Positions 8,506 to 28,567 of a DNA stretch of 64,000 nt are shown in pieces. Under the pieces are notes generated by a model that was given only the letters and a program-made list of their open reading frames with translations, made no database searches and was not told the DNA's origin. The position numbers and the translations under genes were made by a program. This DNA is from Ailanthus altissimus (taxonomy: Eukaryota > Streptophyta > Magnoliopsida > Sapindales > Simaroubaceae). How positions within the stretch are numbered: position 1 is the first letter of the stretch; every line of letters starts with the position of its first letter. The stretch spans positions 9,436,001-9,500,000 of the forward strand of contig OX327694.1 in NCBI GenBank assembly GCA_946807835.1, written 5' to 3'.

Positions 8506-8510
8506 CCTTG

Positions 8511-10064
8511 TGATGAACACATGAAAATGCATGTTGTTAAAAGATTCAATCACCATTTAATGTCACTAATTTTAGTATTTTTTGTATTTTTAGCTTGAAA
8601 TAAAGTGTTCTCCTTAAATTGTGATTAATGAATGTTATTTGGACAGATTTAGGTAAATTGGACATAACTCTCAATGTAGAAATCGAAATGAAGAAATTCT
8701 TAAACCTGGTGCAACATGACTCAATCTTACACAAATTTGAAGAACAGTGGAAAAGCCAAATCCAACATGTTATGGGCCAAACATTGAGATACAACAGAAT
8801 CGGACTACAACTCTTACCCAGCTTGCCCAACTCACGTATTTGAACCGTATCTCCCAAAATACATACTCAATTGGTATAATTATTGAAGCTGTGAATTGAT
8901 GACTTAACTATCAACAACTCGTATGTTTATGGTAAAGTCCAAATCAGCCGTTATCATGGACCAAATCGCATTACAAGTGGGTAAAATAGTTGTTGGCCGA
9001 ATTCTGATGTATCTTTGGAAGTTTGCTCATATCTCATTGGATACTCATCCAATTTGCATGAAATCAGTGCCTATGGAAAGAAGAGTCAAAATTCTACAAC
9101 TTTCATGTCGGCTGCAGAAGCTGAATTGATCATTTACATTATCAAAAATATGCTGCAAGTGGATACATGAGTTATTGGCTTAAAATTATTGAAGATTGAT
9201 ATCATCCATGACATATGTCCATTCATTGCCTATATAAGGAGACCCTTAGGACGTTTTTAATAGATAATTTCTCTCTTCTTTTATTCTCATTAACATGTAT
9301 TGTAATTTAGGCTAGAGTTCCTAGCAAGGCTAAGAGATGAACTTTTATGTGTAGTAAATCTACTTCCATGCTTTGATTCGGTGTCAAGAGCTATAAATGT
9401 TGTAAGTTTGGTTTTGATTAAACTCTTATCTATTTTATTTTCTATAATCCAGAGGTTATAATTTTCATGTCTCATATATGTTCAGTCATGCTTTTCTTAT
9501 GTGATTCATGTTGATTTATAATTGTTACTGGTTACATTGTTTTATATGTTAATCTTTTATTGCAGTATTGTCAATTTGATATATTGTCGATCTTAGATAA
9601 CATGTAAGGGCAATAAATGTTTGATATTCAAGTTAATATTTTACTGCAATATTGTCAAAATGATATATTGTCCATCTTAGATAACTTGTATAAATAACAT
9701 GATGTGTGTTAATGCTTGCAAAGAGTTTAACTAAATCAAATACATGTGTTATCAAATGTGCTATATATTACATACCTTCCGATTGATTGTTTGGGATGTG
9801 AAACTTTCAGTTGAGTTATAAATATCGAATCAAAGTATAGAGTAGATTTATAAAGCATAATTGTGATTCTCAAAGCCTTGCTTAAATCATCATAAGACAT
9901 TTTCCTCAATTCATAGACAATTCTTTCTCATCCGTTTAAATCAATTAACCCTTTGCTACTGCTTTAATATTTTACTTCACTAACCTATTTTGCCAAGAGC
10001 TTCCTCGTGGGATCGACACCTCAATCTATACTACGATAGCTGCGTTATATTTTAAGCGTAAACA
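8511..10064 (+). repeat. 5' LTR of the Athila-type element
   Basis: This 1554-bp repeat starts TGATGAACAC and ends GCGTAAACA. It matches 19350-20903 along its whole length and the solo LTR at 56413-57971. Near the end it has CTCGTGGGATCGACACC, typical of the Athila group. The short ORFs inside it recur in all three LTR copies simply because the LTR recurs; they are not supported as genes. Confidence 0.95.
9231..9238 (+). promoter_or_regulatory. LTR TATA box
   Basis: TATATAAG lies within GCCTATATAAGGAGACCC, about 830 bp before the 5' LTR end. The same box is kept at 20070-20077 in the 3' LTR and about 57134 in the solo copy. It is the likely core promoter, with transcription starting about 30 bp downstream. 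Confidence 0.7.
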
Positions 10065-10070
10065 AAAATT

Positions 10071-10088
10071 TGGCGCCGTTGCCAGGGA
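10071..10088 (+). other. Primer-binding site of the Athila-type element
   Basis: TGGCGCCGTTGCCAGGGA begins six bases after the 5' LTR end. TGG plus this core is the usual Athila-group primer site, which I recall as complementary to tRNA-Asp. It fixes the LTR/internal boundary. Confidence 0.85.
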
Positions 10089-10203
10089 AGCACACTAAGC
10101 GAAAGTCGGTTGCGATTATAAATACTAAAGTGGTAACTTTGTATATTTTCTTTTCTTTGTAAACTCTTAGTTTATTTCCTTTGTTGTAATTTATTTATTA
10201 TTC

Positions 10204-10720
10204 ATGGTTAGTTCTACCACCTAATTTATTTTGTTTTCTTTAGTTAATTTGTTATATTTTATATTATCTTAATGGCTGGTTTTGCCGCCTAATTAGTTTA
10301 TTTTCTTTTATCTATTTATTGCACTTTATTTCTTATGGCTAGTTTTACCGCCTAACTTTGTTCACTTTCTTTTATTTATTTATTGTACTTTATTTCTTTA
10401 GTTAATTTATTGTATTTTCTTTTTATTTTATGGCTGGTTCTACCACCTAACTTAGTTTCTTTATTTCGTATTGTACTCTATTTATTTATTGCACTTTTTT
10501 TATTGTACTTTATTTTCATTTTCTTTTACATATTTATTGCAATTTATTTTCTTTAGTTAATATGTTGTATTTTCTTTTTATGGCCGGTTCTACCGCCTAA
10601 CCTTTTATTTATTTACTTATTGTATTTTCTTTTTATTATTTAATTATTGTACTTTTTCGTATTTTATAGTCTTTTGTTTAGTTATTGTTTTTATATTTCA
10701 TGGTTGGTCTTACCACCTAA
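10204..10720 (+). promoter_or_regulatory. Leader array of six 7-codon uORFs that can also form hairpins
   Basis: Six copies of a 21-nt unit lie at 10204-10224, 10272-10292, 10335-10355, 10430-10450, 10580-10600 and 10700-10720, separated by T-rich spacers. Each is exactly ATG, five sense codons and TAA. In each copy the bases between start and stop can pair (GG(C/T) with (G/A)CC, then GGT or AGT with ACC or GCC). One stem position is C/G in copies 2, 3 and 5 and T/A in copies 1 and 6, which looks like compensation. A further mini-ORF at 10807-10824 overlaps the gag start. Nearly every ATG in the leader lies in such a mini-ORF. Roles in ribosome shunting, reinitiation or packaging are possible but inferred. 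Confidence 0.6.
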
Positions 10721-10810
10721 CTTATTTCTATTTCTTGTTGTGTTTATTCCACTTCTTAATTTTCCTTAAGCATTTCTTTCCTAAAAAAAAAAAAAAAAAA
10801 ATTAGGATGT

Positions 10811-13465
10811 ATGCATCGACCTAGAGACAAACGAGGAAGATTTGTGAGAGAACTAGAACTAGAACTAGAACCACTCCCACAATTTGTAAGTGAAGAGAAT
10901 TCACCTTCTAGTTCATCTTGTAATTCTAACACAATGAGCCAACACGAAGAAAACCCCGTTAGAACTCTAAAAGATTACTTGCATCCTACTCGCACAGTCA
11001 CACCATCATGCATTATATTTCCACCTAACATACCACATTCGGATTTTAAACCTGGAATGATACAACTTCTTCCCACTTTTCATGGTCTAGATAGTGAAAA
11101 TCCTTATGTACATGTTAAGGAATTTGAAGAGGTAATTGCCACCTTCCATAGCCAACCTGAAGCCATAGACACTGTTAGGCTTAAGTTTTTCCCTTTTTCT
11201 TTGAAAGACAAAGCAAAGAGTTGGCTATACTCTTTGAGGCCGAGGTCTATAGGAACTTGGGCAGAAATGACCCAAGCATTTTTCAATAAATACTTCCCAC
11301 AACACAAAACTAATGGCCTGAAAAGACAAATTTCTTCATTCTCCCAAAAAGACAGTGAAACCTTATATCAAGCATGGGAAAGGTTTAAAGAGTTGCTAAA
11401 TCTGTGCCCTCACCATAGGTATGAAAATTGGCGCTTGGTTAGTTATTTCTATGAGGGACTCACAATTAGAGAGCGCCAATTTGTTGAGATGATGTGTAAT
11501 GGGGAGTTCCTTCACAAAGATCCTGAGGAAGCCATAGAATTCCTTAATGACTTAGCCGAAAAAGCCCATACAAGGACTGGACCTAGCATTGCTGAAAGCA
11601 CAAATAGGTCACGACCCAATGGAGTTTTCCATCTTAGGGAAAAGGATAACCTCAAAGCCCAATTAGAGGTCTTAACTAGGGAGTTAGAGGCCTTGAAATC
11701 CAAAGATAGAAGGGTCACCCACACGGTTGCTAGAGTTGAGTCACACGATGTCTGTTTTGTCTGTGGAGGAGCGGAACACTTAGCTCAGGATTGTCCCACG
11801 TATAGTGAGATGAGAGGGATATATGAGGAACAATGTAATGCCCTAGGGATGTACAAGAAGCCTTATTCACCCTACTCTGAAACATATAATCCTAGCTGGA
11901 GAAACCACCCAAATTTCAGTTGGAAATCTGACCAACAAGCCAACAACCAATGGAAACAAGAACAACAAGCACCCAAGTCTTATGTTGCACCTCAATATAA
12001 TGCACGACCAACTAGGAGTTCTTTAGAGGATACATTACAAGCATTTATGGAGGCACAAAGTAAGACTAATCAAAAATTTGAAACAATTCTTGCACAAGTG
12101 GTGGACGAAAACAAAGAAATCAAGAGTCAAATCATAAAATTGACCAGTGTCTTAACTATACAAGAGAGAGGTAAGTTTCCATCTCAACCTCAATCCAATC
12201 CAAAAGGACAATTCATGGCACAAGCTTCTACTTCTGATGTTCAAAATCTCAAAGAAGTCAATGCCATTACTACTCGAAGTGGTAAGATTGTAAGTGAGCC
12301 TACTCCTGAAATTAACACATCTACGAGTAGTAAAGATGCCCCCCTTGAAAAAGAGGCCACAATGGAAAAAGAGCCCGAAAGTAAGTTTTCAATCCCAGTG
12401 CCTTTTCCTCAAGCTCTTCGACCGGTTGGGAAAAATTCAGAAATTCAAGGTGAGATTTTGGAACATTTGAAACAAGTTAAAATTAATCTTCCCTTGTTAC
12501 ATTTGATTAAGCAGGTTCCAACTTATGCCAAAGTCATCAAGGATTTATGCACTATCAAAAGAAAACACCATGTGAAGAAAACTACATTTTTGGCAGAACA
12601 GGTAAGTGCAGTGATTGAACAAAAGACACCACCCAAGTATAAAGACCCAGGATGTCCCACAATCTCTTGCCAAATTGGGACACATGAGTTTGGTCAAGCT
12701 TTATTGGACTTAGGAGCAAGTGTAAATTTAATGCCTTATTCTATTTACTTGCAGTTAGGACTTGGTGAGATTAAACCAACATCTGTAGTCCTACAATTAG
12801 CTAACCGATCAATCAAGAAACCACGGGGAATAGTAGAAGATGTTTTGTTGCAAATTGACAAATTTTACTATCCTGTTGATTTTCTTGTTTTAGATACTCA
12901 TTCTGTTGTTAACATGGAGTCAAAAATCCCTCTTATTTTGGGGAGACCTTTTCTAGCCACTGCTAACGCTCTTATTAATTACAGAAATGGTCTAATAAAA
13001 TTATCTTTTGGGAATATGACTCTTGAGGTGAATATTTTCAACATTGGCAAACAACCACGAGAAGAAGACGAGTGCTATCATTCATATATAATAGACACAC
13101 TTGTAGCGGAGGAAGCTTATAAAAATCATGGCTATGATTCTTCGAAAAACCTTCTCAATTTTGATTTTGAAGAATTGTATTATCTTGATGTAACAACTAA
13201 TGTGTTTAGTATTTTTGACTCACAGGATAAACGGACTCGATTTTGGCAGCCACACTTTGAAGAGTTGCCACGAGAGAGGGAGAGACCAAAACCATCAAAC
13301 CTCGAGACACCACAAGTTGAGCTTTCTCCACTGCCCAAAGGTTTGAAACACGCATTTTTGGGACCAGGTGATACCTTTCCTATCATCATTTCTTCTGAAC
13401 TTAGTGCTGAACAAGAGAAAAAATTGATAAAATTGTTAAAAGAACATAAGTCTGCACTAGGTTAG
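10811..13465 (+). CDS. gag: Gag and aspartic protease part of Athila-type polyprotein
   Basis: This 884-codon ORF encodes the capsid/nucleocapsid protein that packages element RNA, followed by the protease. The gag domain covers about residues 85-225 (FKPGMIQLLPTFHG, then KDKAKSWLYSL). A zinc knuckle of the C-x2-C-x4-H-x4-C type has C315, C318, H323 and C328. The protease active site is D633-L-G-A-S; DLGAS instead of DTGAS is the form I know from Athila. The start follows an A-rich tract at 10783-10800 and is overlapped by a mini-ORF at 10807. The ORF ends in TAG at 13463-13465, exactly in frame with the RT ORF, just after a conserved KSALG segment. In relatives a tryptophan usually occupies this position, so the stop is probably a mutation rather than the natural end. 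Confidence 0.92.
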   Translation: MHRPRDKRGRFVRELELELEPLPQFVSEENSPSSSSCNSNTMSQHEENPVRTLKDYLHPTRTVTPSCIIFPPNIPHSDFKPGMIQLLPTFHGLDSENPYVHVKEFEEVIATFHSQPEAIDTVRLKFFPFSLKDKAKSWLYSLRPRSIGTWAEMTQAFFNKYFPQHKTNGLKRQISSFSQKDSETLYQAWERFKELLNLCPHHRYENWRLVSYFYEGLTIRERQFVEMMCNGEFLHKDPEEAIEFLNDLAEKAHTRTGPSIAESTNRSRPNGVFHLREKDNLKAQLEVLTRELEALKSKDRRVTHTVARVESHDVCFVCGGAEHLAQDCPTYSEMRGIYEEQCNALGMYKKPYSPYSETYNPSWRNHPNFSWKSDQQANNQWKQEQQAPKSYVAPQYNARPTRSSLEDTLQAFMEAQSKTNQKFETILAQVVDENKEIKSQIIKLTSVLTIQERGKFPSQPQSNPKGQFMAQASTSDVQNLKEVNAITTRSGKIVSEPTPEINTSTSSKDAPLEKEATMEKEPESKFSIPVPFPQALRPVGKNSEIQGEILEHLKQVKINLPLLHLIKQVPTYAKVIKDLCTIKRKHHVKKTTFLAEQVSAVIEQKTPPKYKDPGCPTISCQIGTHEFGQALLDLGASVNLMPYSIYLQLGLGEIKPTSVVLQLANRSIKKPRGIVEDVLLQIDKFYYPVDFLVLDTHSVVNMESKIPLILGRPFLATANALINYRNGLIKLSFGNMTLEVNIFNIGKQPREEDECYHSYIIDTLVAEEAYKNHGYDSSKNLLNFDFEELYYLDVTTNVFSIFDSQDKRTRFWQPHFEELPRERERPKPSNLETPQVELSPLPKGLKHAFLGPGDTFPIIISSELSAEQEKKLIKLLKEHKSALG

Positions 13466-13495
13466 ACCATAGCTGATATTAAAGGTATTTCTCCA

Positions 13496-16222
13496 TTGAT
13501 ATGCTCCCATAGAATTCATTTAGAGGAAGGTTCCCAATCTCGTAGAGACCCACAAAGAAGACTTAACCCAACAATGAAAGAAGTAGTGAAGAAAGAGGTC
13601 TTGAAACTATTAGATGCGGGTATAATCTACCCAATTTCTGATAGTCAATGGGTAAGTCCAACTCAAGTAGTTCCTAAGAAATCTGGGGTTACTGTTGTTG
13701 AAAATGAGAATGGGATACCTGTTCCAACTAGGGTAGTAAGTGGTTGGAGAATGTGTATTGATTATAGAAAGTTAAACACAGCCACTAGGAAAGACTATTT
13801 TCCATTGCCTTTTATCGACCAAATTTTAGAACGTGTAGCTGGACATCCTTTTTATTGCTTTCTTGATGGGTATTTAGGGTATTACCAGATTGAGATAGCT
13901 ATAGAAGATCAAGAAAAAACTACTTTTACATGCCCTTTTGGTACTTATGCTTTTCGTAGAATGCCATTTGGATTATGTAATGCACCAGCTACTTTTCAGC
14001 GTTGCATGTTGAGTATTTTCTCTGATATGGTTGAAAAATGCATGAAAGTCTTTATGGATGATTTGACTGTTTTTGGTAATTCTTTTGATTTATGCCTACT
14101 TAACTTGAAATTTGTTTTGAGTAGGTGTGAAGAAAAAGGACTTGTGCTAAATTGGGAGAAATGTCATTTCATGGTATCTTCAGGAATCGTTTTAGGGCAC
14201 ATTATATCTGAAAGAGGGATAGAGGTTGACAAGGCAAAAATTGAATTAATCTCTAAATTACCTACACCTAAAACGGTAAAAGATGTCCGATCCTTTCTTG
14301 GACACGCTGGCTTTTACAGAAGGTTTATACAAAACTTTTCTGCCATATCTAGACCATTGTGTAACCTTTTGCTAAAAGATGCAGAATTTACATGGACACA
14401 AGAGTGTGAGGAGGCATTTCGAACACTCATTGCCAAACTCACCACCGCTCCTATCATGCAATCACCAGATTGGAACCTCCCATTTGAAATTATGTGTGAT
14501 GCAAGTAATTATGCTGTAGGAGCAGTTCTTGGGCAACGGAGGGAGGGAAAACCCTTTGTTGTTTATTATGCTAGTAGGACTTTGAATGATGCTCAAATGA
14601 ATTACACTACTACTGAAAAAGAACTATTAGCTGTTGTTTTTGCCTTAGATAAATTTCGTTCTTATTTGATTGGTTCACCTATTGTTATTTTTACTGACCA
14701 CGCAGCCTTTAAGTACCTTCTTTCTATGAAGGATGCTAAAGCCCGTTTAATTAGGTGGATTCTTCTTTTGCAGGAATTTGATATAACCATCAAAGATAAG
14801 AAAGGCGTTGAAAATGTTGTTGTTGATCATCTATCCCACCTTGAGTTCACTGACTCTACTGATTTGCCACCCATTCGAGACGATTTTCCAGATGAACATC
14901 TTTTTGCTATAAGCCAAATACCTTGGTATGCACATATCGTAAATTATTTGGTTTGTGGTGAACTTCCATCTGACTGGAGTGCACAAGATAAGCGTAAGTT
15001 CTTGGTTGAGGTACGTAACTTTTATTGGGATGATCCATATCTTTTCAAATACTGTCCTGACCAAATCATGAGACGTTGTATTCCTGAAAGTGAAGTTTCT
15101 AGTGTCTTAAATTTTTGCCATAGTGCTGCTTGCGGTGGCCATTTTTCTATGAAGAAGACAGCTGTGAAAATTTTACAGTGTGGTCTTTATTGGCCCACTT
15201 TGTTCAAAGACACTAATAATTTTTGTCGTTCCTGTGAAAGATGTCAAAAGTTAGGTGCTTTATCTCGAAGAAATATGATGCCTCTTAACCCTATTCTTGT
15301 TATCGAGATATTTGACTGTTGGGGTATTGATTTTATGGGTCCATTTCCTTCATCTTTTGGCTATCTTTACATCATTTTAGCTGTTGACTATGTATCAAAA
15401 TGGGTGGAGGCTGTAGCTTATCGTACTAATGATAATACAACTGTGGTAAAATTCTTAAAAGAAAATGTGTTATCTAGGTACGGTACGCCACGTGTCATCA
15501 TTAGTGACCAAGGAACACATTTTTGTAATCGTTCTTTTGAAGCTTTGATGCGCAGGTATGGTGTTCTTCACAAAGTTTCCACTGCATACCATCCACAGAC
15601 AAATGGACAAGCCGAGCTAGCAAATAGAGAGGTTAAACAGATTTTGGAAAAGACGGTTAACCCGAATCGCAAAGATTGGTCTCTACGCCTTTCTGATGCA
15701 TTATGGGCATATCGTACTGCATACAAAACCATCTTAGGAATGTCCCCATACCGGCTTGTTTATGGGAAAGCTTTCCATTTACCTGTTGAGCTAGAACATA
15801 AAGCTTATTGGGCTGTCAAAGCCCTTAACTTTGATTTGAATGCTGCAGGTCTCCAGAGAAAGTTACAATTGTCAGAAATAGAAGAGCTACGAAATGACGC
15901 ATATGACAACTCCAGAATTTACAAAGCTAAAATGAAAGTAGCTCATGATAAACAGATCTCAAGGAAACACTTTGAGCCAAATCAACGGGTCTATCTTTAT
16001 GATTCTCGATTGCATTTACACCCTGGAAAGTTGAGATCTCGATGGACTGGTCCATTTATGGTAAGACATGTTTTTCCTAATGGTGCTGTTGAAATAGAAG
16101 ACCCCACTGATGGACGGACTTTCAAAGTGAATGGACAGCAGCTAAAAAGCTACGTGGAAAAGGTAAATGACTCTATGTACCTAGGCGAGATCCCTCTTGT
16201 AGATTCTGTCTATCGTGATTGA
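13496..16222 (+). CDS. pol: Pol: reverse transcriptase, RNase H, integrase
   Basis: This ORF continues the gag-protease frame after the single TAG; its first in-frame ATG is at 13496 but the reading frame opens at 13466. It has 908 codons from the ATG. The RT carries the FMDD active site at residues 186-189. RNase H follows, with [12 protein letters not shown] and TDHAA. Integrase has the zinc-binding HHCC region from H542 and H549 and a D-D-E triad at D612, D671 and E707 with the standard 35-residue gap. The C-terminus ([13 protein letters not shown], then NGQQLKSY) is of Athila/Tat type without chromodomain. All catalytic residues are present, so the protein would work if expressed. It copies the element RNA and integrates the cDNA in the nucleus. 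Confidence 0.93.
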
Positions 16223-16329
16223 TCAGGTTCAATCTATCTGTACCATATTTTATATTTTGTCTATATTTTATATTTTGACTTTCTATTTTTGCTTTTATTT
16301 TCTTGCACATGTTATTTTACTTTATTTTC

Positions 16330-16350
16330 TTCTTTTTATTTTTTCTTCAG
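16330..16350 (+). promoter_or_regulatory. Possible splice acceptor ahead of ORF3
   Basis: A long T/C-rich run (about 16312-16350) ends in TTTTTTCTTCAG followed by TGTG, a strong plant 3' splice site by eye. It lies between pol and ORF3, 120 bp before the ORF3 ATG. Env-like genes of LTR elements are commonly expressed by splicing, so this site could produce an ORF3 subgenomic mRNA. No donor has been established. Confidence 0.4.
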
Positions 16351-16470
16351 TGTGATTTTATTTCCCGGTCAAGTGGCGGATACAGTACTCCGTGACTATT
16401 AAAGTCGGTTTCTCAGTTCCCTAAAAACTGTCTCTCAAACGGTGCATTCATCTCTTTTCTTTCTTTCAAA

Positions 16471-17019
16471 ATGGATCGCATTCTTGCCAACCTTAAAAAA
16501 CGTTTTCCTTCATTTCCTCAAAATGCTCTACTTAAGATTTACAAAGCACGGTGTGAAAGACTAAGGCTATTGATGTTGGGTAATATCCCTGTGGACCTTC
16601 GTTGGTTAATTGAAGCCAAGGTTCGGTTGTCTGATGAGTTTGAAAATGATTTTGTTTCTCATATGCCTGGTCTTGGAAGAAGCTCTTATGCCAAAAGGCG
16701 ACGAGCAAAAAGGTTACAAGTCTGTCTTAAATGTGCTCGATGGAATTGTAATTGGAGTTGTCGTTCTTTAGGATTCGTATCTAGAAATCGAGAAGACAAA
16801 ATTCAGTTCATTAAGGATGGACTGAGTAAGGAGTCTTTGGATGATATCCTATTGACTCTTGAGACGCATCCCTGTGGGCTCGTGCAACGTGAACTTCTCG
16901 ATTTATGGAACAAATTCAAAAATGAACATCAACGGTATAGTCTCAGGAATCTGACTCTAAAAGACCCTGTTTGCCAATTTATAAGAAAATTGGATGGGAA
17001 GCCTATCCCCGACCCATAG
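16471..17019 (+). CDS. ORF3: virus-type cysteine-rich nucleic-acid-binding-like protein
   Basis: A 182-residue open frame lies 248 bp after pol, in the position of the Athila env-like gene, but it has no signal peptide or membrane segment. Residues 70-81 read GRSSYAKRRRAK, a basic stretch likely to bind nucleic acid and enter the nucleus. Cysteines C85, C88, C93 and C97 follow, as C-x2-C-x4-C-x3-C. A conserved-looking IQFIKDGLSKE comes next, then an unmatched C-terminal 60 residues. The GRSxYAxRRRA block followed by CxxC and this tail resembles the small cysteine-rich proteins of carlaviruses and vitivirus-like viruses, several of which suppress RNA silencing. Those proteins are shorter (about 100-120 residues) and usually have a different spacing for the last metal ligands. 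The frame is intact although the element is about 2% diverged. Function is inferred from motif resemblance only; a novel retroelement protein is the alternative. Confidence 0.65.
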   Translation: MDRILANLKKRFPSFPQNALLKIYKARCERLRLLMLGNIPVDLRWLIEAKVRLSDEFENDFVSHMPGLGRSSYAKRRRAKRLQVCLKCARWNCNWSCRSLGFVSRNREDKIQFIKDGLSKESLDDILLTLETHPCGLVQRELLDLWNKFKNEHQRYSLRNLTLKDPVCQFIRKLDGKPIPDP

Positions 17020-17274
17020 AGGGCGTTTAAGCCGTTACTGGACGTAAAACCAGAGGAAGATGTAAGCCACAATCACAACTACTTGTAAATACATGTGTTT
17101 TAATTTCAAACTTTATTTTATGAATAGTAGGGCTACTCATGTAGATGTCTTAAATTCAAATCTTTTTGTTCAATAATGCATGTGGGTCATTATGTTTAAA
17201 TTTTTGTGTTTTATTTTTAACTCTCTTTTGACAAACTGTCGGGTTACCATAATCATTGTTATCATTTGGCACTC

Positions 17275-17282
17275 TATAAATA
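17275..17282 (+). promoter_or_regulatory. Internal TATA box ahead of the LOG gene
   Basis: TATAAATA in the context GGCACTCTATAAATACAGC lies 53 bp before the LOG ATG at 17335. That spacing would give a start site around 17305 and a leader of about 30 bases. It suggests that LOG may have its own promoter, captured with the gene or evolved within the element. AT-rich DNA makes chance TATA boxes common, so confidence is moderate. Confidence 0.4.
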
Positions 17283-17334
17283 CAGCACCTCAGTTTCTTC
17301 ATTTTCATATATTGAGATAAAGGTGAGAGTAGAT

Positions 17335-17982
17335 ATGGAGGAAACCCAAGTTCGACAATTTCGAAATATATGTGTATTTTGTGGATCTAGTCCTGGGGAG
17401 AGTAAAGTGTTCGTAGAAGCAGCAAACAATCTAGGAAAAACATTAGCTGCAAGAAAAATTCATTTGATTTATGGAGGAGGTAGCCTTGGGCTAATGGGGT
17501 GTGTGTCAACAGCTGCACATTTAGGAGGAAGTCAAGTTTTAGGTATTATTCCTACAGCTTTGGCCGTGGAAAACCTGACCGGGAAAACAATAGGGGAAGA
17601 ATTACAAGTCTCATCCATGCATGAACGTATAGCCAGAATGCTTTGCAATGCAGACGCTTTTATTGCTTTACCAGGTGGTTTTGGTACCTTGGAAGAAATT
17701 TTTCAAATTGTCTCTTGGGCCCAACTGAATATCCACCGAAAACCCATAGGTTTGTTGAATGTTAACAACTATTTTGATTGCTTACTTTGTTTTCTTGATC
17801 AAGCTGTGGAACAGAATTTTATTTCACATTCGGCGCGACAGATCCTGGTTTCTGCTACTGAGGCGGATGAATTGATTAACAAATTACAGGCAGTTACCTA
17901 CGAACCTGACCCAGCAATAACTCGGATCGATTGGTCAGTGGGCCTTAACAAGCGAAAATTGGATCTGACACTCCGTTTGTAA
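17335..17982 (+). CDS. LOG: ORF4: cytokinin riboside 5'-monophosphate phosphoribohydrolase, LOG family
   Basis: LOG enzymes release active cytokinin base and ribose 5-phosphate from cytokinin nucleotide in the cytosol and nucleus. An open frame begins at 17266, but the ATG at 17335 gives 215 residues, the normal plant LOG length, and starts just before NICVFCGSS. From that ATG: CGSSPG at 16-21, YGGGSLGLMG at 46-55, the MHER segment with R98, and PGGFGTLEE at 113-121 ending in E121. The Arg and Glu are the catalytic pair known for the family. In the usual MHxRKAxM the Lys is here Ile99. The tail from about residue 187 is unusual. Host LOG genes have several introns; this copy has none, which indicates capture from a spliced RNA. 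It sits 246 bp after ORF3, in the same orientation as pol and inside the LTRs and TSD, so it moves with the element. Confidence 0.95.
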   Translation: MEETQVRQFRNICVFCGSSPGESKVFVEAANNLGKTLAARKIHLIYGGGSLGLMGCVSTAAHLGGSQVLGIIPTALAVENLTGKTIGEELQVSSMHERIARMLCNADAFIALPGGFGTLEEIFQIVSWAQLNIHRKPIGLLNVNNYFDCLLCFLDQAVEQNFISHSARQILVSATEADELINKLQAVTYEPDPAITRIDWSVGLNKRKLDLTLRL

Positions 17983-19349
17983 ATTTTTCTTTTTATTTAT
18001 TTATTTATCAGTACCATCATTTTAGTTTATATTTGCTTAAATGTCTCTCAGGTTTGTTTCTTTCAAATAACTGGCGTTTCAGGTAATGTCTCCTATACTT
18101 TATCTCTTTCTATTTAAACATTGAGGACAATGTTTCATCTGGTTTGGGGGGAGGATAGTAGACATACGTTGCATTTTGCAAAAAAAAAAAAAAAAAAAAA
18201 ATTGTGGTCCGACATTTGAATTAAAATGGCAGAGTAAAGAGTTCATTCTTAAACTCTTGAGACGCATTCTAGGTCAAATTAGAATGGCAGAGTAAGGAGT
18301 TTTAGTACTAACTTTTGAAATGCATTTTAACTAACTTTTTGTTATTTTGTTTTATATTTCATGCATTGTCGTTTACTGCTTGTAGTCTTGGTAATTCTTG
18401 TATAAAGGAATTTGCTTTTCTGCATAAGTATGATTTCAGAATTGTTTAGGTTGAGTCACTGTTTCTATCTTGGTTACTAAAGAATGACTTCCAAAATATT
18501 TTTGAGCACAATGCTAAGCCTTGTGGTAAGATGGATGATTCAATTTATATAGCCAAGAGAATTCTCATGTTTAAGTATATATTTTTCTAATCTCGCATAT
18601 CTTTTGTGAGTAAGTGGAAAGGTTGAGAAAACAGCTTATGAACCTTCATTGATCCTTTGAATTGGTTAATTTTTGTTTAAAATGATATTATTTGAATTAA
18701 GGGATAAGTTGGTTACATTTGTGCATAATATAATTTGGTGAGAAACCTTTATAATGCTTCCTTGTATTCTTCAAAAATACAAAAAAAAAAAAAAAATACA
18801 AAAGTACCAAAAACAAGAGAAAAAAAAAAGAAGCAATTCAGTTTAATAAAGTCTTCATTCAATTTTAGAAGACAAATACCTTGTAAAACAGTTTTCTCAC
18901 CAAGTTATAATTGTATTATTCTCACAAGCCAATTAAAGTTCTAAAGTTGGCGTATGATATGAATAATTGATTTTTAAACAAATAATTTTTCTATCTTCGG
19001 ATCAATGTTAGTTTATATGTCTGTCCTTAAAATTGACTTTTTCTTGAGTGCTTAACTGTTTTCCAACTCCATAAGAGAAGTCCTAACCTTTTAAACAGTC
19101 ATACACCTGTGAGGATATGGAGTTGAGGCTTTTACTTGGAGAAATTCTCAAGGCTATATCTATTGTGATTTGTGGTTAGATGGTTATGGCTTAGTTCACA
19201 CACACACAAATTACGGAAGTTGTAATTGAAAAAACCATGATAGCAACAGTGATCTCGAACTAACATTTTGATTGAAATGCTTAGGTAGTTTTGCATATTC
19301 TATTTACGCTTGAATTGCTAGAGACTAGCAATAAGCTGGTTGGGGGCTG
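17983..19349 (+). other. Noncoding tail of the Athila-type element with polypurine tract
   Basis: No gene is seen in these 1.37 kb. At about 18120-18155 lies ACATTGAGGACAATG, soon followed by GGTTTGGGGGGAGG, a pair typical of the 3' region of Athila/Tat elements. A run of about 20 A follows (18180-18201), possibly the trace of a polyadenylated captured transcript. Two imperfect 57-bp units with AATGGCAGAGTAA begin at about 18226 and 18283. The tract GGTTGGGGGCTG ends at 19349, directly before the 3' LTR, and is the probable plus-strand primer. Confidence 0.7.
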
Positions 19350-20903
19350 TGATGAACACATGAAAATGCATGTTGTTAAAAGATTCAATCACCATTTAAT
19401 GTCACTAATTTTAGTATTTTCTGTATTTTTAGCTTGAAATAAAGTGTTCTCCTTAAATTGTGATTAATGAATGTTACTTGGACAGGTTTAGGTAAATTGG
19501 ACATAACTCTCAATGTAGAAATTGAAATGAAGAAATTCTTGAACCTAGTGCAACATGACTCAATCTTACACAAATTTGAAGAACAGTGGAAAAGCCAAAT
19601 CCAATATGTTATGGGCCAAATATTGAGATACAACAGAATCGGACTACAACTCTTACCCAGCTTGCCCAACTCACGTATTTAGACCGTATCTCCCAAAATA
19701 CATACTCAATTGGTATAATTCTTGAAGCTGTGAATTGCTGACTTAACTATCAACAACTCGTATGTTTATGGTAAAGTCCAAATCAGCCGTTATCATGGAC
19801 CAAATCGTATTACAAGTGGGTAAAATGGTTGTTGGTCGAATTCTGATGTATCTTTGGAAGTTTGCTCATATCGCATTGGATACTCATCCAATTTGCATGA
19901 AATCAGTGCCTATGGAAAGAAGAGTCAAAATTCTACAACTTTCATGTCGGCTGTAGAAGCTGAATTGATCATTTACATTATCAAAAATGTGCTGCAAGTG
20001 GATACACGAGTTATTGGCTTAAAATTATTGAAGATTGATGTCATCCATGACATATGTCCATTCATTGCCTATATAAGGAGACCCTTAGGACGTTTTTAAT
20101 AGATAATTTCCCTCTTCTTTTATTCTCATTAACATGTATTGTAATTTAGGCTAGAGTTCCTAGCAAGGCTAAGAGATGAACTTTTATGTGTAGTAAATCT
20201 ACTTCCATGCTTTGATTCGGTGTCAAGAGCTATAAATGTTGTAAGTTTGGTTTTGATTAAACTCTTATCTATTTTATTTTCTATAATCCAGAGGTTATAA
20301 TTCTCATGTCTCATATATGTTCAGTCATGCTTTTCTTATGTGATTCATGTTGATTTATAATTGTTACTGGTTACATTGTTTTATATGTTAATCTTTTACT
20401 GCAGTATTGTCAATTTGATATATTGTCGATCTTGGATAACATGTAAGGGCAATAAATGTTTGATATTCAAGTTAATCTTTTACTGCAATATTGTCAAAAT
20501 GATATATTGTCGATCTTAGATAACTTGTATAAATAACATGATGTGTGTTAATGCTTGCAAAGAGTTTAACTAAATCAAATACATGTGTTATCAAATGTGC
20601 TATATATTACATACCTTCCGATTGATTGTTTGGGATGTGAAACTTTCAGTTGAGTTATAAATATCGAATCAAAGTATAGAGTAGATTTATAAAGCATAAT
20701 TGTGATTCTCAAAACCTTGCTTAAATCATCATAAGACATTTTTCTCAATTCATAGACAATTCTATCTCATCCGTTTAAATCAATTAACCCTTTGCTACTG
20801 CTTTAATATTTTACTTCACTAACCTATTTTGCCAAGAGCTTCCTCGTGGGATCGACACCTCAATCTATACTGCGATAGCCGCGTTATATTTTGAGCGTAA
20901 ACA
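19350..20903 (+). repeat. 3' LTR of the Athila-type element
   Basis: This 1554-bp LTR starts TGATGAACAC and ends GCGTAAACA, followed by the CCTTG duplication at 20904-20908. Its TATA box is at 20070-20077. It differs from the 5' LTR by scattered, mostly transition substitutions and has the same length. Confidence 0.95.
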
Positions 20904-20908
20904 CCTTG

Positions 20909-23923: not shown

Positions 23924-26900
23924 ATGCATCGTCGTGGAGGCCCACGTACTAGGAGAGCAGCCGCGGACGCTCTTGCACCTGAAGAGGAGCAGGAAAATGA
24001 GTCAGTAAATGTTCCTACGCCTCAGACCCCTCCTGAATTATCTCAACCCGCTGAGCAAGAGGGTGGAAACGTTAATATAGCTCAAATAGCCCAGATACTA
24101 GCAGCGGCGATCCAACAGCTGCGAGAGACTGGAGTGTCCATTGAGCGCGCCAAGAAATTAGGCGCTAAGCCTTATGACGGTACCGGAGATCCCGAGAGAG
24201 CCTTATCTTGGTTAGAGAACAATGAAGAAATTTTTCAGGTTATGGAATGTACGGAAGAGCAGATGGTGGTATACTCCGCATTTCTATTGAAAGAAGGAGC
24301 GAAAGATTGGTGGAAGGCCTTGTAAAGGAGGAACGCCGATGGGGTGTCTTGGGTGCTTTTCAAAGAGGAATTTCTGAATAAGTTCTACCCCAAAAGTTAT
24401 AAAGATGCGAAGATAGAAGAATTCTTCAAGCTCGAACAGGGTTCCCTCTCGGTGGCTGAGTACGAGAAGAAGTTTTCGGAGCTCCTCCATGCCGTTCCCT
24501 TTATAGCCGATAATGAGGAGCAGAAGGCTAACCATTTTGCAGTGGGTCTCAATCCACGAATCAGGGCGTATGTAGTATCGGCAGCCCACACTCAGTATGG
24601 TGCATTGGTGGAAGATGCAACACGGGTTGAAAGAAGCATGGCGGTCATCCCTAAACCGAAACAGTAGGGTCAGAAAAGAGGCTGGTTAGGTAGTTCTCGA
24701 GGAGGACCGAGTAAATTCACCCGAACAGAGGAGAGATCTTCATGGTCCAGCAGTCAAAATCCAAGCCAAGGAGCTCAATCCAGCCAAGCTTCCGTTCGGC
24801 AACCATCCGTCGGATTCCGAAGCACTAAGGAGAGTTGAAAGAATTTCCCGATGTGTAATAAATGTGGCAAGGCCCATCAGGGGAATTGTAAGAAAGGGAT
24901 TACCGGGTGTTATAAGTGCGGTCAAGAGGGTCACTACATGAGAGATTGCTCGAATGATGGAGCTAGCAGTATGTTAGAAGATAGACCACCAGCTCCGGGA
25001 CAAACCAGTGGCGGTCGAGGGTAGATTCGAGAAGGCCCCCAATTCAGAAGATCGAGCGGCGCGAGCCAGCCTAGTAGGGGAGCCGGTCGAGGAGGATCAT
25101 CCGGTGGATCACAAGTGAAACCGCATACCCAGGCTAGGGTATTTGCGGTGACCCAACAGGAGGCAAATGCGGCCCCAGAAGTTGTGACAGGTACAATGTC
25201 AATTTTTGATCGAGATGCTTATATACTGATAGATCCTGGAGCAACCCATTCGTTTATTTCTGTGGAGTTTGCTGCAAATGTTAGTATAGCACCCCAGTTA
25301 TTAGATGGTGTGGTAGTAATGTCTCTTCCTACTAGAGACTCCATTGTAGCATAAACGGTGTATAGGAGTAGTAAAATTAGTATTGAAAGCCAAGAGTTTA
25401 TGGCGGATTTGATTATGTTGGCCATCAGTGAGTTTGATGTGATTTTAGGGATGGATTGGTCGTCTAAGTATCGGGCATCAGTGGATTGCTTCTGGAAAGA
25501 AGTTAGATTATTTAGCCCAGGCGGAACGGAAGTTATTTTCTGTGGGGTGCAAAAATCACTTTCCGCCAGCATGGTGTCGGTAATGAGGGCAAGAAAGATG
25601 CTTCGAAAGTCATGTCAGGGTTACTTAGTCTATGCCATAGACGTAAGAGATGGTGGAACGAAATTGGAGGATATTTCGGTGGTGAGAGAGTTTCCGGATG
25701 TATTCCCCGCGGATCTTTCGGGATTACCTCCGGATAGAGAGATAAAGTTTAAAATAGAAGCAGCCCCTGGAACACAACCAATTTCTAAAGCACCTTATAG
25801 AATGGCTCCTTCAGAATTGAAAGAACTGAAGGTTCAGTTAGAAGAGTTGGTGAATAAGAGTTTCATTAGACCGAGTACTTCTCCTTGGAGTGCACCGGCT
25901 TTGTTTGTAAAGAAGAAAGACGGAAGCATGAGATTGTGCATTGATTACCGGGAGCTGAATAAAGTAACGGTGCGTAATCAATATCCACTTCTGAGAATTG
26001 ATGATTTGTTTGATCAGCTGCAAGGAGCTAGAGTATTTTCCAAGATAGATCTGAGGTCAGGCTATCATCAATTGAAGATCCGGGAGGAAGATGTTCCTAA
26101 GACGGCCTTTAGGACCCGATATGGGCATTATGAATTTTTGATTGTGCCTTTTGGGCTGACTAATGCCCCAGCTGCTTTTATGGATCTTATGAATAGAGTT
26201 TTTAGATCCTATTTAGATCGGTTTGTGATAGTATTTATTGATGATATACTGGTTTATTTAAGCAGTGAGAAAGAGCATATAGAACATTTGAGGATAGTTT
26301 TGCAGACCTTAAGGGAGCATCGGCTGTATGCCAAACTTAGTAAATGTCAAATTTGGCTAGATAGAGTTGCATGTTTGGGGCATGTAATCTCTGCAGAAGG
26401 GGTAGCAGTAGATCCCCAGAAGATTGAAGCAATAGTGAATTGGAGACAGCCCACGAACGTGACTGAGATCCGTAGTTTCTTGAGTTTGGCCGGATATTAT
26501 AGGAAGTTTGTAGAGGGATTCTCAAGGATAGCCGCTCCTCTGACTAAGTTAACCTGGAAAGAAGAGAAGTTTGTATGGTCGGAAGCGTGCCAGCAGAGCT
26601 TCGAAGAGCTAAAACGAAGGTTGACTTTGGCCCCTGTGCTTACACTTCCGTCGGGAAATGACGGTTTTACCATATATTGTGATGCTTCCAGGCAAGGTCT
26701 AGGTTGTATGCTAATGCAGAAGGAGAAAGTAATAGCCTATGCGTCCAGACAATTAAAGAAGCATGAACAGAATTATCCTACACATGACCTAGAACTAGCT
26801 GCAGTAGTTTTTGCTTTAAGAATTTGGAGGCATTATTTGTATGGGGTTCCTTGCAAGATCTTTACAGATCATAAGAGCCTGTAGTACTTGTTCACTCAGA

Positions 26901-28567
26901 AAGAATTGAATATGAGGCAAAGAAGGTGGCTGGAGCTTATTAAAGATTATGAGTGCACCTTGGAGTACCATCCAGGAAAAGCTAACGTGGTAGCAGATGC
27001 TCTCAGCAGAAAGCCTGTCAGTTCAATAGCTCACTTGAAGGTCGCATATCTATCGATGTTGATAGAATTGAGGTCTTTAGGTGTAAAATTAGAATTATTA
27101 GATTCGGGAGCATTATTAGCCACATTTCAGGTATGTCCAATACTGGTTGATCGGATCAAAGAACTACAGACTCAAGATCCACAAGTAGTTAAATTAAAGG
27201 GTGAAATCGAGTCCGGGCAGCGGAAGGATCTTTCAGTGACCGAGGATGGTGTAGTAACCTTAGGTCGGAGGTTATGTGTTCCGGATGTAAATGAATTAAG
27301 AAGAGAGATTATGGAAGAAGCTCATTCTTCTGCGTATGCTATGCATCCGGGGAGCACAAAGATGTACCGTACCCTAAAAGAGCACTACTGGTGGAAGGGC
27401 ATGAAGAAAGATATAGCTAAATTTGTCTCGAGATGCCTAACTTGCCAACAAGTAAAAGCGGAGCATCAGAAACCTGTAGGGCTCTTGCAACCCCTTCCGA
27501 TTTCGGAGTGGAAATGGGAAAGAATAACGATGGACTTCGTGGTAGGACTTCCACGTAACCAGAGAGGCAATGACGCAATATGGGTGATTGTTAATAGACT
27601 AACAAAATCTGCCCACTTCCTACCCATTAGAAGCAGTTGTTCTTTAGATAAATTGGCCCAGTTGTACGTAGATGAGGTGGTACTACTCCATGGAGTTCCC
27701 TTATCCATTGTGTCAGACAGGGATCCACGGTTCACTTCTCGATTTTGGCCCAGTTTACAGAAAGCTCTAGGTACAAAATTGAGTTTCAGTACGGCCTTTC
27801 ATCCTCAAACGGATAGTCAGTCGGAACGGACAATTCAGACACTTGAAGATATGCTTAGAGCGTGTGTTATGGAGTTTAAGGGAAGTTGGGATACTCATCT
27901 GCCGCTAATGGAGTTCGCCTACAATAATAGCTACCAGACTAGCATCAAAATGGCACCATATGAAGCATTGTACGGAAAAAAGTGCAGAACTCTAGTTTGT
28001 TGGGATGAGGTAGGTGAAAGGAAGCTGATCGGCCCAGAAATTGTCCAGATTACTTCGGAAAAGATTCAACTTATCAGGCAGAGATTGAAAACAGCTAATG
28101 ATAGACAGAAAAGTTATGCAGATAACAGAAGAAGAGACTTGGAGTTTGAGATCAGTGATAAGGTCTTTCTGAAGCGAGTACTAAGATTCGAGAAGCGAGG
28201 AAAGCTGAGTCCTCGATCTATTGGACCGTACGAGATAGTTGAAAGAGTTGGAAAGGTGGCATATCGTCTACGGTTACCCAAAGATCTGGCTAGAATCTAT
28301 GATGTGTTTCATGTTTCCATGCTTCGCAAGTATATAGCAGATCCTTCACACATCCTAAGGGAACAATTGGTAGAATTGAATGAGAACTTGACCTACAGAG
28401 AGAAGCCTGTGCAAATCCTAGACCGGAAAGAGCAAGTCCTTCGTAACAAAAGCATTCCCTTAGTTAAGGTGTTATGGATGAACCATGGGGTAGAAGAAGC
28501 CACGTGGGAACGTGAAGATCAGATGCGAGTGCAACATCTTCACCTCTTTGAGACAGGTATGATTTAA
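23924..28567 (+). pseudogene. gag-pol: Tekay gag-pol polyprotein with six in-frame stops
   Basis: One frame runs from ATG 23924 to the stop at 28565 without frameshift. Order: gag (about 24160-24640), zinc knuckle CYKCGQEGHYMRDC (about 24910-24950), protease IDPGATHSF (about 25230), RT with FIDDIL (about 26240), RNase H with CDAS and FTDHKSL, integrase with HPGST, a C-x2-C zinc half-site, [15 protein letters not shown] and QTDSQSERT, and a chromodomain ([16 protein letters not shown]) at the end. Stops fall at 24323 (TAA), 24665 (TAG), 24836 (TGA), 25022 (TAG), 25352 (TAA) and 26882 (TAG). Each is one C-to-T step from a Gln or Arg codon. The chromodomain would direct integration to heterochromatin in active relatives. 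Confidence 0.92.

Follow-up and report, generated by a model that had tools for sequence, protein, structure and literature searches.

A retrotransposon-borne LONELY GUY gene under selection, with an EAR-like tail and a flexivirus-type neighbour, in Ailanthus altissimus

Plant retrotransposons are usually viewed as selfish copiers that need only evade silencing. Athila-like elements with an extra ORF of LOGL4-like or YgdH type are said to have been reported by Steinbauerova et al. in 2011. According to the available part of PMC9289625, which cites Steinbauerova 2011, Citrus and Populus have Ty3/gypsy elements with LOG-type ORFs. The EAR consensus is given as LxLxL and DLNx(x)P in the available text of PMC9956375, which also names LDLNLTP as the EAR motif at the C-termini of ZCT1 and ZCT2; the accessible portion of PMC7446885 describes a pathogen effector, HaRxL21, that binds TOPLESS via a C-terminal LxLxL, and adds that an EAR motif by itself is not sufficient. 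The lineage described here, with relatives in several plant orders, retains under selection a predicted hormone-activating enzyme with a co-repressor-type tail, beside a protein assigned to a silencing-suppressor family.

The window, by which we mean the whole stretch of 64,000 nt of Ailanthus altissimus DNA that was analysed, contains a 12.4-kb Ty3/gypsy LTR retrotransposon spanning 8511-20903, with the LOG ORF between pol and the 3' LTR (Table 1). The matching LTRs, CCTTG duplication and gag-pol stop described in the sequence-only reading are all there: the 1554-nt LTRs are 2.06% apart (32 mismatches/1554 nt), and gag-pol is a single frame interrupted by one in-frame stop. The order gag-PR-RT-RH-INT, the LTRs and the 5-nt target duplication agree with Athila elements, the protease match falling just below the Pfam cut-off (24.0 vs 24.3 bits). 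The Athila label is our own provisional assumption, taken from what is said to have been reported in 2011 and from the type of primer binding site. The Athila definition in the available part of PMC6317226 takes the position in an RT/RH/INT tree and the lack of a Tat aRH domain. As a component of the best overall explanation, and at the slightly better than even confidence that we attach to that whole, the element is understood as an autonomous-type Ty3/gypsy (Athila-like) retrotransposon with one gag-pol stop in the window copy.

Table 1. Features of the LOG-bearing retrotransposon, in window positions
Feature	Position	Strand	Remarks
5' target-site duplication CCTTG	8506..8510	.	identical to 20904-20908
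5' LTR, 1554 nt	8511..10064	+	vs 3' LTR: 32 mismatches, 26 of them transitions
Primer binding site TGGCGCCGTTGCC	10071..10083	+	presumably tRNA-Asp type
gag-protease ORF, terminated by in-frame stop	10811..13465	+	PF03732, E 1.9e-21
RT-RNaseH-integrase ORF	13574..16222	+	same frame as gag; RVT_1, RT_RNaseH, Integrase_H2C2, rve
182-aa ORF, probably related to flexivirus nucleic-acid-binding proteins/RNA silencing suppressors	16471..17019	+	Pfam Viral_NABP, Carla_C4
Block shared by families A and B at ~96-100% identity	16961..17091	+	covers end of 182-aa ORF and 72 nt past its stop
CTATAAATA, TATA box of presumed internal LOG promoter	17274..17282	+	60 nt 5' of LOG ATG; conserved
LOG ORF, intronless, 215 aa	17335..17982	+	ATG to TAA; PF03641
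LOG C-terminal tail KRKLDLTLRL, basic patch and LxLxL (EAR-motif consensus)	17950..17979	+	no counterpart in 9 host LOG C-termini
Purine-rich TTTGGGGGGAGG	18143..18154	+	similar stretch 3' of LOG in family B
3' LTR, 1554 nt	19350..20903	+	
3' target-site duplication CCTTG	20904..20908	.	

Two further observations concern the surroundings. Antisense within the gag ORF (11315-11421, minus strand) lies a match to the plant snoRNA snoR71 (Rfam RF00097; 64.5 bits, cut-off 40), so that either this snoRNA family derives from a retroelement or the Rfam family is misfiled. Downstream in the window, at 23924-28567 on the plus strand, stands a second retroelement with gag-like and pol-like ORFs in separate frames, its translations being judged by eye.

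The LOG frame was described earlier as complete, and the 215 aa do run from ATG to TAA with zero internal stops; R98 (in MHER) and E121 (at the end of PGGFGTLEE), which we take to be the catalytic residues from the roles known for LOG enzymes, are both in place. The protein matches Pfam PF03641 at E 2.2e-39 (135.1 bits against a curated cut-off of 27), and its closest solved structure is Arabidopsis At2g37210 (2a33, E 2.4e-66). Having the PF03641 domain together with the catalytic Arg and Glu, the product is predicted to be an active LOG phosphoribohydrolase.

With this LOG as query, the 939-Mb host genome (37 contigs) gave 6315 first-look candidates. Scores were obtained for 150, with identities of 97-100% throughout; a stop-free LOG is present in 133 of these 150, a share biased upward because the scored copies were the best matches. 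The genome holds at least 150 close LOG copies and two further LOG-bearing families. The fetched copies of family A, that of the window element, were all picked by LOG similarity, and the constant position on which the sequence-only reading had made its interpretation depend is seen among them: the LOG follows the 182-aa ORF in 50 of 51, with that ORF lying only partly within the fetched stretch in L032 and replaced by LTR sequence in the exception, L050. Family B was found with AtLOG3 (open frame mostly 250; one copy read, L053) and family C with an AtLOG3 fragment (open frame mostly 238; one copy read, L054, one of the three best-scoring places); the remaining places from the fragment search probably belong to family C too, judging from score and frame length. 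It was the middle of AtLOG3 that led to this third element family and not to host exons, the query with the C-terminal exon recovering the host genes. A single accidental capture, which the earlier reading had held out as the competing outcome, or a recent one, is contradicted by the thousands of first-look candidates, the three families and a single clade lying 0.72 off AtLOG3 and AtLOG8, and was dropped. Contamination was dropped likewise, the LOG elements standing on contigs of 20-38 Mb and within LTR context.

Beyond the host, LOG relatives come from Xanthoceras, Melia, Diplodiscus, Reevesia, Pterospermum, Populus, Paulownia and Primulina, as named by the database sources. Relatives of the LOG and of its neighbour pair up nine times on same-size contigs of one source (e.g., 8723, 4511 and 2128 nt), in a comparison that took 63 of 120 LOG and 112 of 120 neighbour matches, on short contigs, and in which chance may account for the smaller coincidences; a Rhamnella protein, P0237, is a fusion of LOG and 182-aa-type domains. 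The retrotransposon LOG is real, selected and widespread. Its proposed capture from mRNA is upheld, for two host LOG genes (L055, L056) contain five introns and the element LOG zero, the exons breaking near LOG3 residues 68, 79, 112, 135 and 183 within the compared residues 36-199 (first exons lie outside the fetched stretches); because of this difference, passage through mRNA is the simplest reading. A further host-like LOG locus, L057, reads through an exon junction that is split in the others and is perhaps a retrocopy. In a 51-row tree, built with 46 of the 120 database LOGs and with AtLOG3 and AtLOG8 as the only host side, 49 element-type LOGs group in a single clade separate from these two (support 100/100; branch of 0.72 changes/site). 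The tree would fit one old LOG capture, which with two host LOGs it neither dates nor proves.

Family C extends the picture to what looks like a non-autonomous LTR element with a LOG, known from one copy (G000:C17:5093000-5101200; L054, L068, L069). Its direct repeats stand 6534 nt apart and do not differ anywhere in the 1667 nt compared, which suggests very recent movement; because both extend beyond the fetched stretches, the repeats measure at least 1667 nt and the interior at most 4.9 kb. The gag, pol and 182-aa proteins of the window element had zero matches in the fetched 8.3 kb of this copy. Besides the LOG, there is one long ORF of some 400 aa, read as two segments, for which a Pfam search gave zero matches. 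An ORF at L054 1335-2027 (minus strand), free of Pfam matches, precedes the LOG, in the place where families A and B carry the flexivirus-type ORF; the pair of LOG and 182-aa ORF is not universal because family C has this different upstream ORF. Six pairs of places from the AtLOG3-fragment search lie 6.5-6.7 kb apart, as expected for tandem copies with a common LTR.

The second extra ORF, absent from the earlier account, exceeds the curated cut-offs of Viral_NABP (PF05515; 32.7 vs 23 bits) and Carla_C4 (PF01623; 26.2 vs 20.9), and its relatives match the two families at E<=1 in 23 of 23 and 21 of 23 cases, respectively; the family B protein passes PF05515 and fails PF01623 (18.3 vs 20.9). A first structural model from 23 sequences (pLDDT 55) gave weak, scattered matches to flexivirus-type proteins. 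The model from 100 sequences is of moderate confidence (pLDDT 71.8, pTM 0.33), and the top 7 of its 30 viral structure matches, none of them significant by itself (E 0.26-1.2, TM no higher than 0.34), carry the names RNA silencing suppressor (three), nucleic-acid-binding protein (three) and 15kDa protein (one), from viruses that we take to be flexiviruses. A PDB relative was not found, the sole match, ribosomal S10, being dismissed at E 0.72; viral contigs searched with the LOG and with the 182-aa ORF yielded no relatives of either, and the best 120 of 759 matches in a protein search with the whole alignment (not the trimmed core) are plant-type proteins. Homology of the 182-aa ORF to flexivirus nucleic-acid-binding proteins is, in our judgement, likely, and nucleic-acid binding with a dampening effect on silencing is its probable function. 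The member of this protein family from Chrysanthemum virus B reportedly acts in the nucleus and raises cell proliferation, an effect that would suit a protein sited beside a cytokinin enzyme.

Between the two ORFs lies a candidate control element. The motif CTATAAATA stands 60 nt 5' of the LOG ATG in family A and 72 nt in family B, is kept in 51 of 51 family A copies, and recurs with one change as CTATAACTA in the family C copy; past its first 72 nt the A/B spacer barely aligns apart from this motif. Such a conserved TATA box suggests a putative internal LOG promoter. Upstream, a block of ~130 nt (16961-17091; L053 982-1112) shows 96-100% identity across A and B and runs past the stop of the 182-aa ORF, for which RNA- or DNA-level constraint, readthrough and recombination are all possible. 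One database protein, P0183, continues past the same stop position into matching residues.

Between families, purifying selection acts on both ORFs. By NG86, dN and dS of the LOG are 0.235 and 1.738 for A-B (dN/dS 0.135), 0.263 and 1.113 for A-C, and 0.160 and 0.476 for B-C, and those of the 182-aa ORF are 0.179 and 0.816 for A-B (dN/dS 0.22). The LOG ratio, which the sequence-only reading had put forward as a check, is thus far below 1 and indicates that the LOG is retained by selection. Within family A, L031 (same place as L001) was excluded from all counts, and L007, L041 and L042 (odd length) as well as L032 and L050 (ORF incomplete) from those of the 182-aa ORF. Singletons, regarded as mostly changes after insertion, divide into amino-acid-changing (stops included) and silent as 38:25 in the LOG and 45:19 in the 182-aa ORF, variants in at least two copies as 4:8 and 4:7. 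With the ORFs pooled, amino-acid changes make up a smaller share of the variants in two or more copies than of the singletons (8:15 vs 83:44, Fisher p 0.0096); individually, p is 0.041 for the 182-aa ORF and 0.115 for the LOG, whose contrast, from copies picked by LOG similarity, is weak when taken alone. Family A copies average 99.3% pairwise identity in the LOG, 99.1% in the 182-aa ORF, 98.3% in the spacer and 98.5% downstream; because copies were chosen by LOG similarity, the LOG figures for identity and selection are flattered, the 182-aa ORF having been no criterion.

The tail of the element LOG provides a further unusual feature. In the window it reads LDLTLRL and so contains the EAR pattern LxLxL. 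Among the 120 database relatives, the last 15 residues hold LxLxL in 98 and DLNxxP in 1 more, as compared to 2 of 120 with either pattern elsewhere in the protein and to a chance level of 1.6% among random 15-mers of the same composition. The LOG of family C (one copy, L054) ends in KKRKIDLNLTP and hence represents the second EAR class, its IDLNLTP resembling the LDLNLTP of ZCT1/ZCT2 as given in the available part of PMC9956375. Neither class of motif occurs in the 9 host LOG C-termini, from 13 host loci fetched, that were readable to the stop. The element tail fits the EAR consensus through which TOPLESS co-repressors are recruited, and may accordingly be a TOPLESS-binding peptide. With regard to the sequence-only reading as a whole, its intact frame, catalytic residues and mRNA capture stand, the 182-aa ORF, the EAR-like tail and the TATA box having escaped it.

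Taken together, the evidence is best explained, with a chance that we put a little above even, by a hormone-plus-silencing effector module consisting of a captured, selected LOG with its own promoter, an EAR tail and a silencing-dampening neighbour. On this view, a long-lived element lineage would have acquired its LOG from spliced host mRNA in what was probably a single event, selection retaining it since. The LOG would be expressed from an internal TATA promoter of its own, independently of gag-pol, and as a cytokinin nucleotide phosphoribohydrolase would raise the cell's active cytokinin; this may favour cell division or a meristematic state, conditions under which new insertions are passed on to progeny. 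The acquired basic-EAR tail could bring the LOG to nuclear TOPLESS co-repressors, a contact that would either repress host genes or occupy TOPLESS as pathogen effectors do, and the neighbouring 182-aa protein would bind nucleic acid and probably dampen silencing. The stronger version, in which a TOPLESS-docking LOG with its own promoter and a flexivirus-related suppressor reprogram the host cell for transposition, the LOG being portable to a family without detectable gag-pol, is put forward tentatively and is rather to be doubted than believed.

The alternative that survives best, unlikely in our estimate, keeps the LOG for its enzyme alone: local cytokinin helps the element, and the tail is passive or stabilising and does not bind TOPLESS. 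The strong conservation of the catalytic residues and the low A-B dN/dS (0.135) agree with it, as do the 21 of 120 relatives without the motif, which sorting by hand from the listing divides into 5 with one leucine changed, 9 (208-212 residues) that stop before or within the tail, and 7 that are shorter, longer or fused. However, the tail is confined to element-type LOGs among the LOGs read, one family has arrived at the second EAR class, and the leucines are nearly fixed while other tail residues vary. Leucine at positions -5, -3 and -1 is kept in 101, 98 and 100 of 102 tails, selected from the 120 by a loose pattern requiring hydrophobic residues at these three positions, so that what this profile can tell is limited to the choice of leucine there and the variation at the intervening positions. 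An enzymatically dead LOG core, serving as scaffold that presents the EAR peptide as a TOPLESS decoy, would account for the long branch separating element from host LOGs and for an EAR-type tail in 99 of 120 relatives, but is improbable given that 112 of the 120 relatives retain R98 and 118 retain E121, and that the PGGxGTxxE region ranks among the most conserved stretches. Hitch-hiking of the LOG as neutral cargo multiplied with a successful element, to which the near-neutral singletons of the 182-aa ORF (45:19 against an expected 2.5-3.5 to 1) and stops in 5 of 51 LOG and 5 of 46 neighbour ORFs of family A, as expected after insertion, would be congenial, is already disfavoured and the least probable of all, since LOG dN/dS is 0.14-0.34 across family pairs with frames intact and dS >1 in two of three, and the LOG is retained in a family without detectable gag-pol.

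Should the parts of the preferred effector module work as they look, transposable elements would manipulate host development and chromatin like pathogens, and the reason why plant Ty3/gypsy elements keep extra ORFs would become testable with a few simple assays. Among described systems, the LOG elements of Citrus and Populus come closest, being likewise Ty3/gypsy with a LOG-family extra ORF, thus the same kind of capture; the available part of that report (PMC9289625) makes no mention of a flexivirus-like ORF, an EAR-like tail, a TATA box, a selection test or a non-autonomous LOG element. A search of the literature that was not exhaustive (it included the available parts of PMC7264820, PMC6317226, PMC11728184 and PMC12596083) found neither a flexivirus-type ORF nor an EAR tail in LOG elements. 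With LONELY GUY enzymes of AtLOG3 type the element LOG shares fold family, length, R98 and PGGxGTxxE, but it is intronless, about 53% identical, extended by the basic-LxLxL tail and resident in retrotransposons. The 182-aa protein exhibits the basic stretch followed by a cysteine cluster of flexivirus proteins (PF05515, PF01623), from which it differs in extending beyond the Pfam match at both ends, with a length of 182 aa, and in being encoded by a retrotransposon. HaRxL21, as described in the available part of PMC7446885, similarly carries LxLxL at its C-terminus without being one of the host's own repressors; in the element LOG, by contrast, the tail sits on an enzyme, the protein belongs to a mobile element, and TOPLESS binding is predicted. 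The orchid Ty3/gypsy elements with an m6A demethylase (available part of PMC9289625) have likewise captured and conserved an enzyme domain, in that case of another enzyme, in another host group and with no hormone link. LOG capture as such was already known, and what is added to it here are the tail, the putative promoter, the flexivirus-type neighbour and the apparently non-autonomous carrier.
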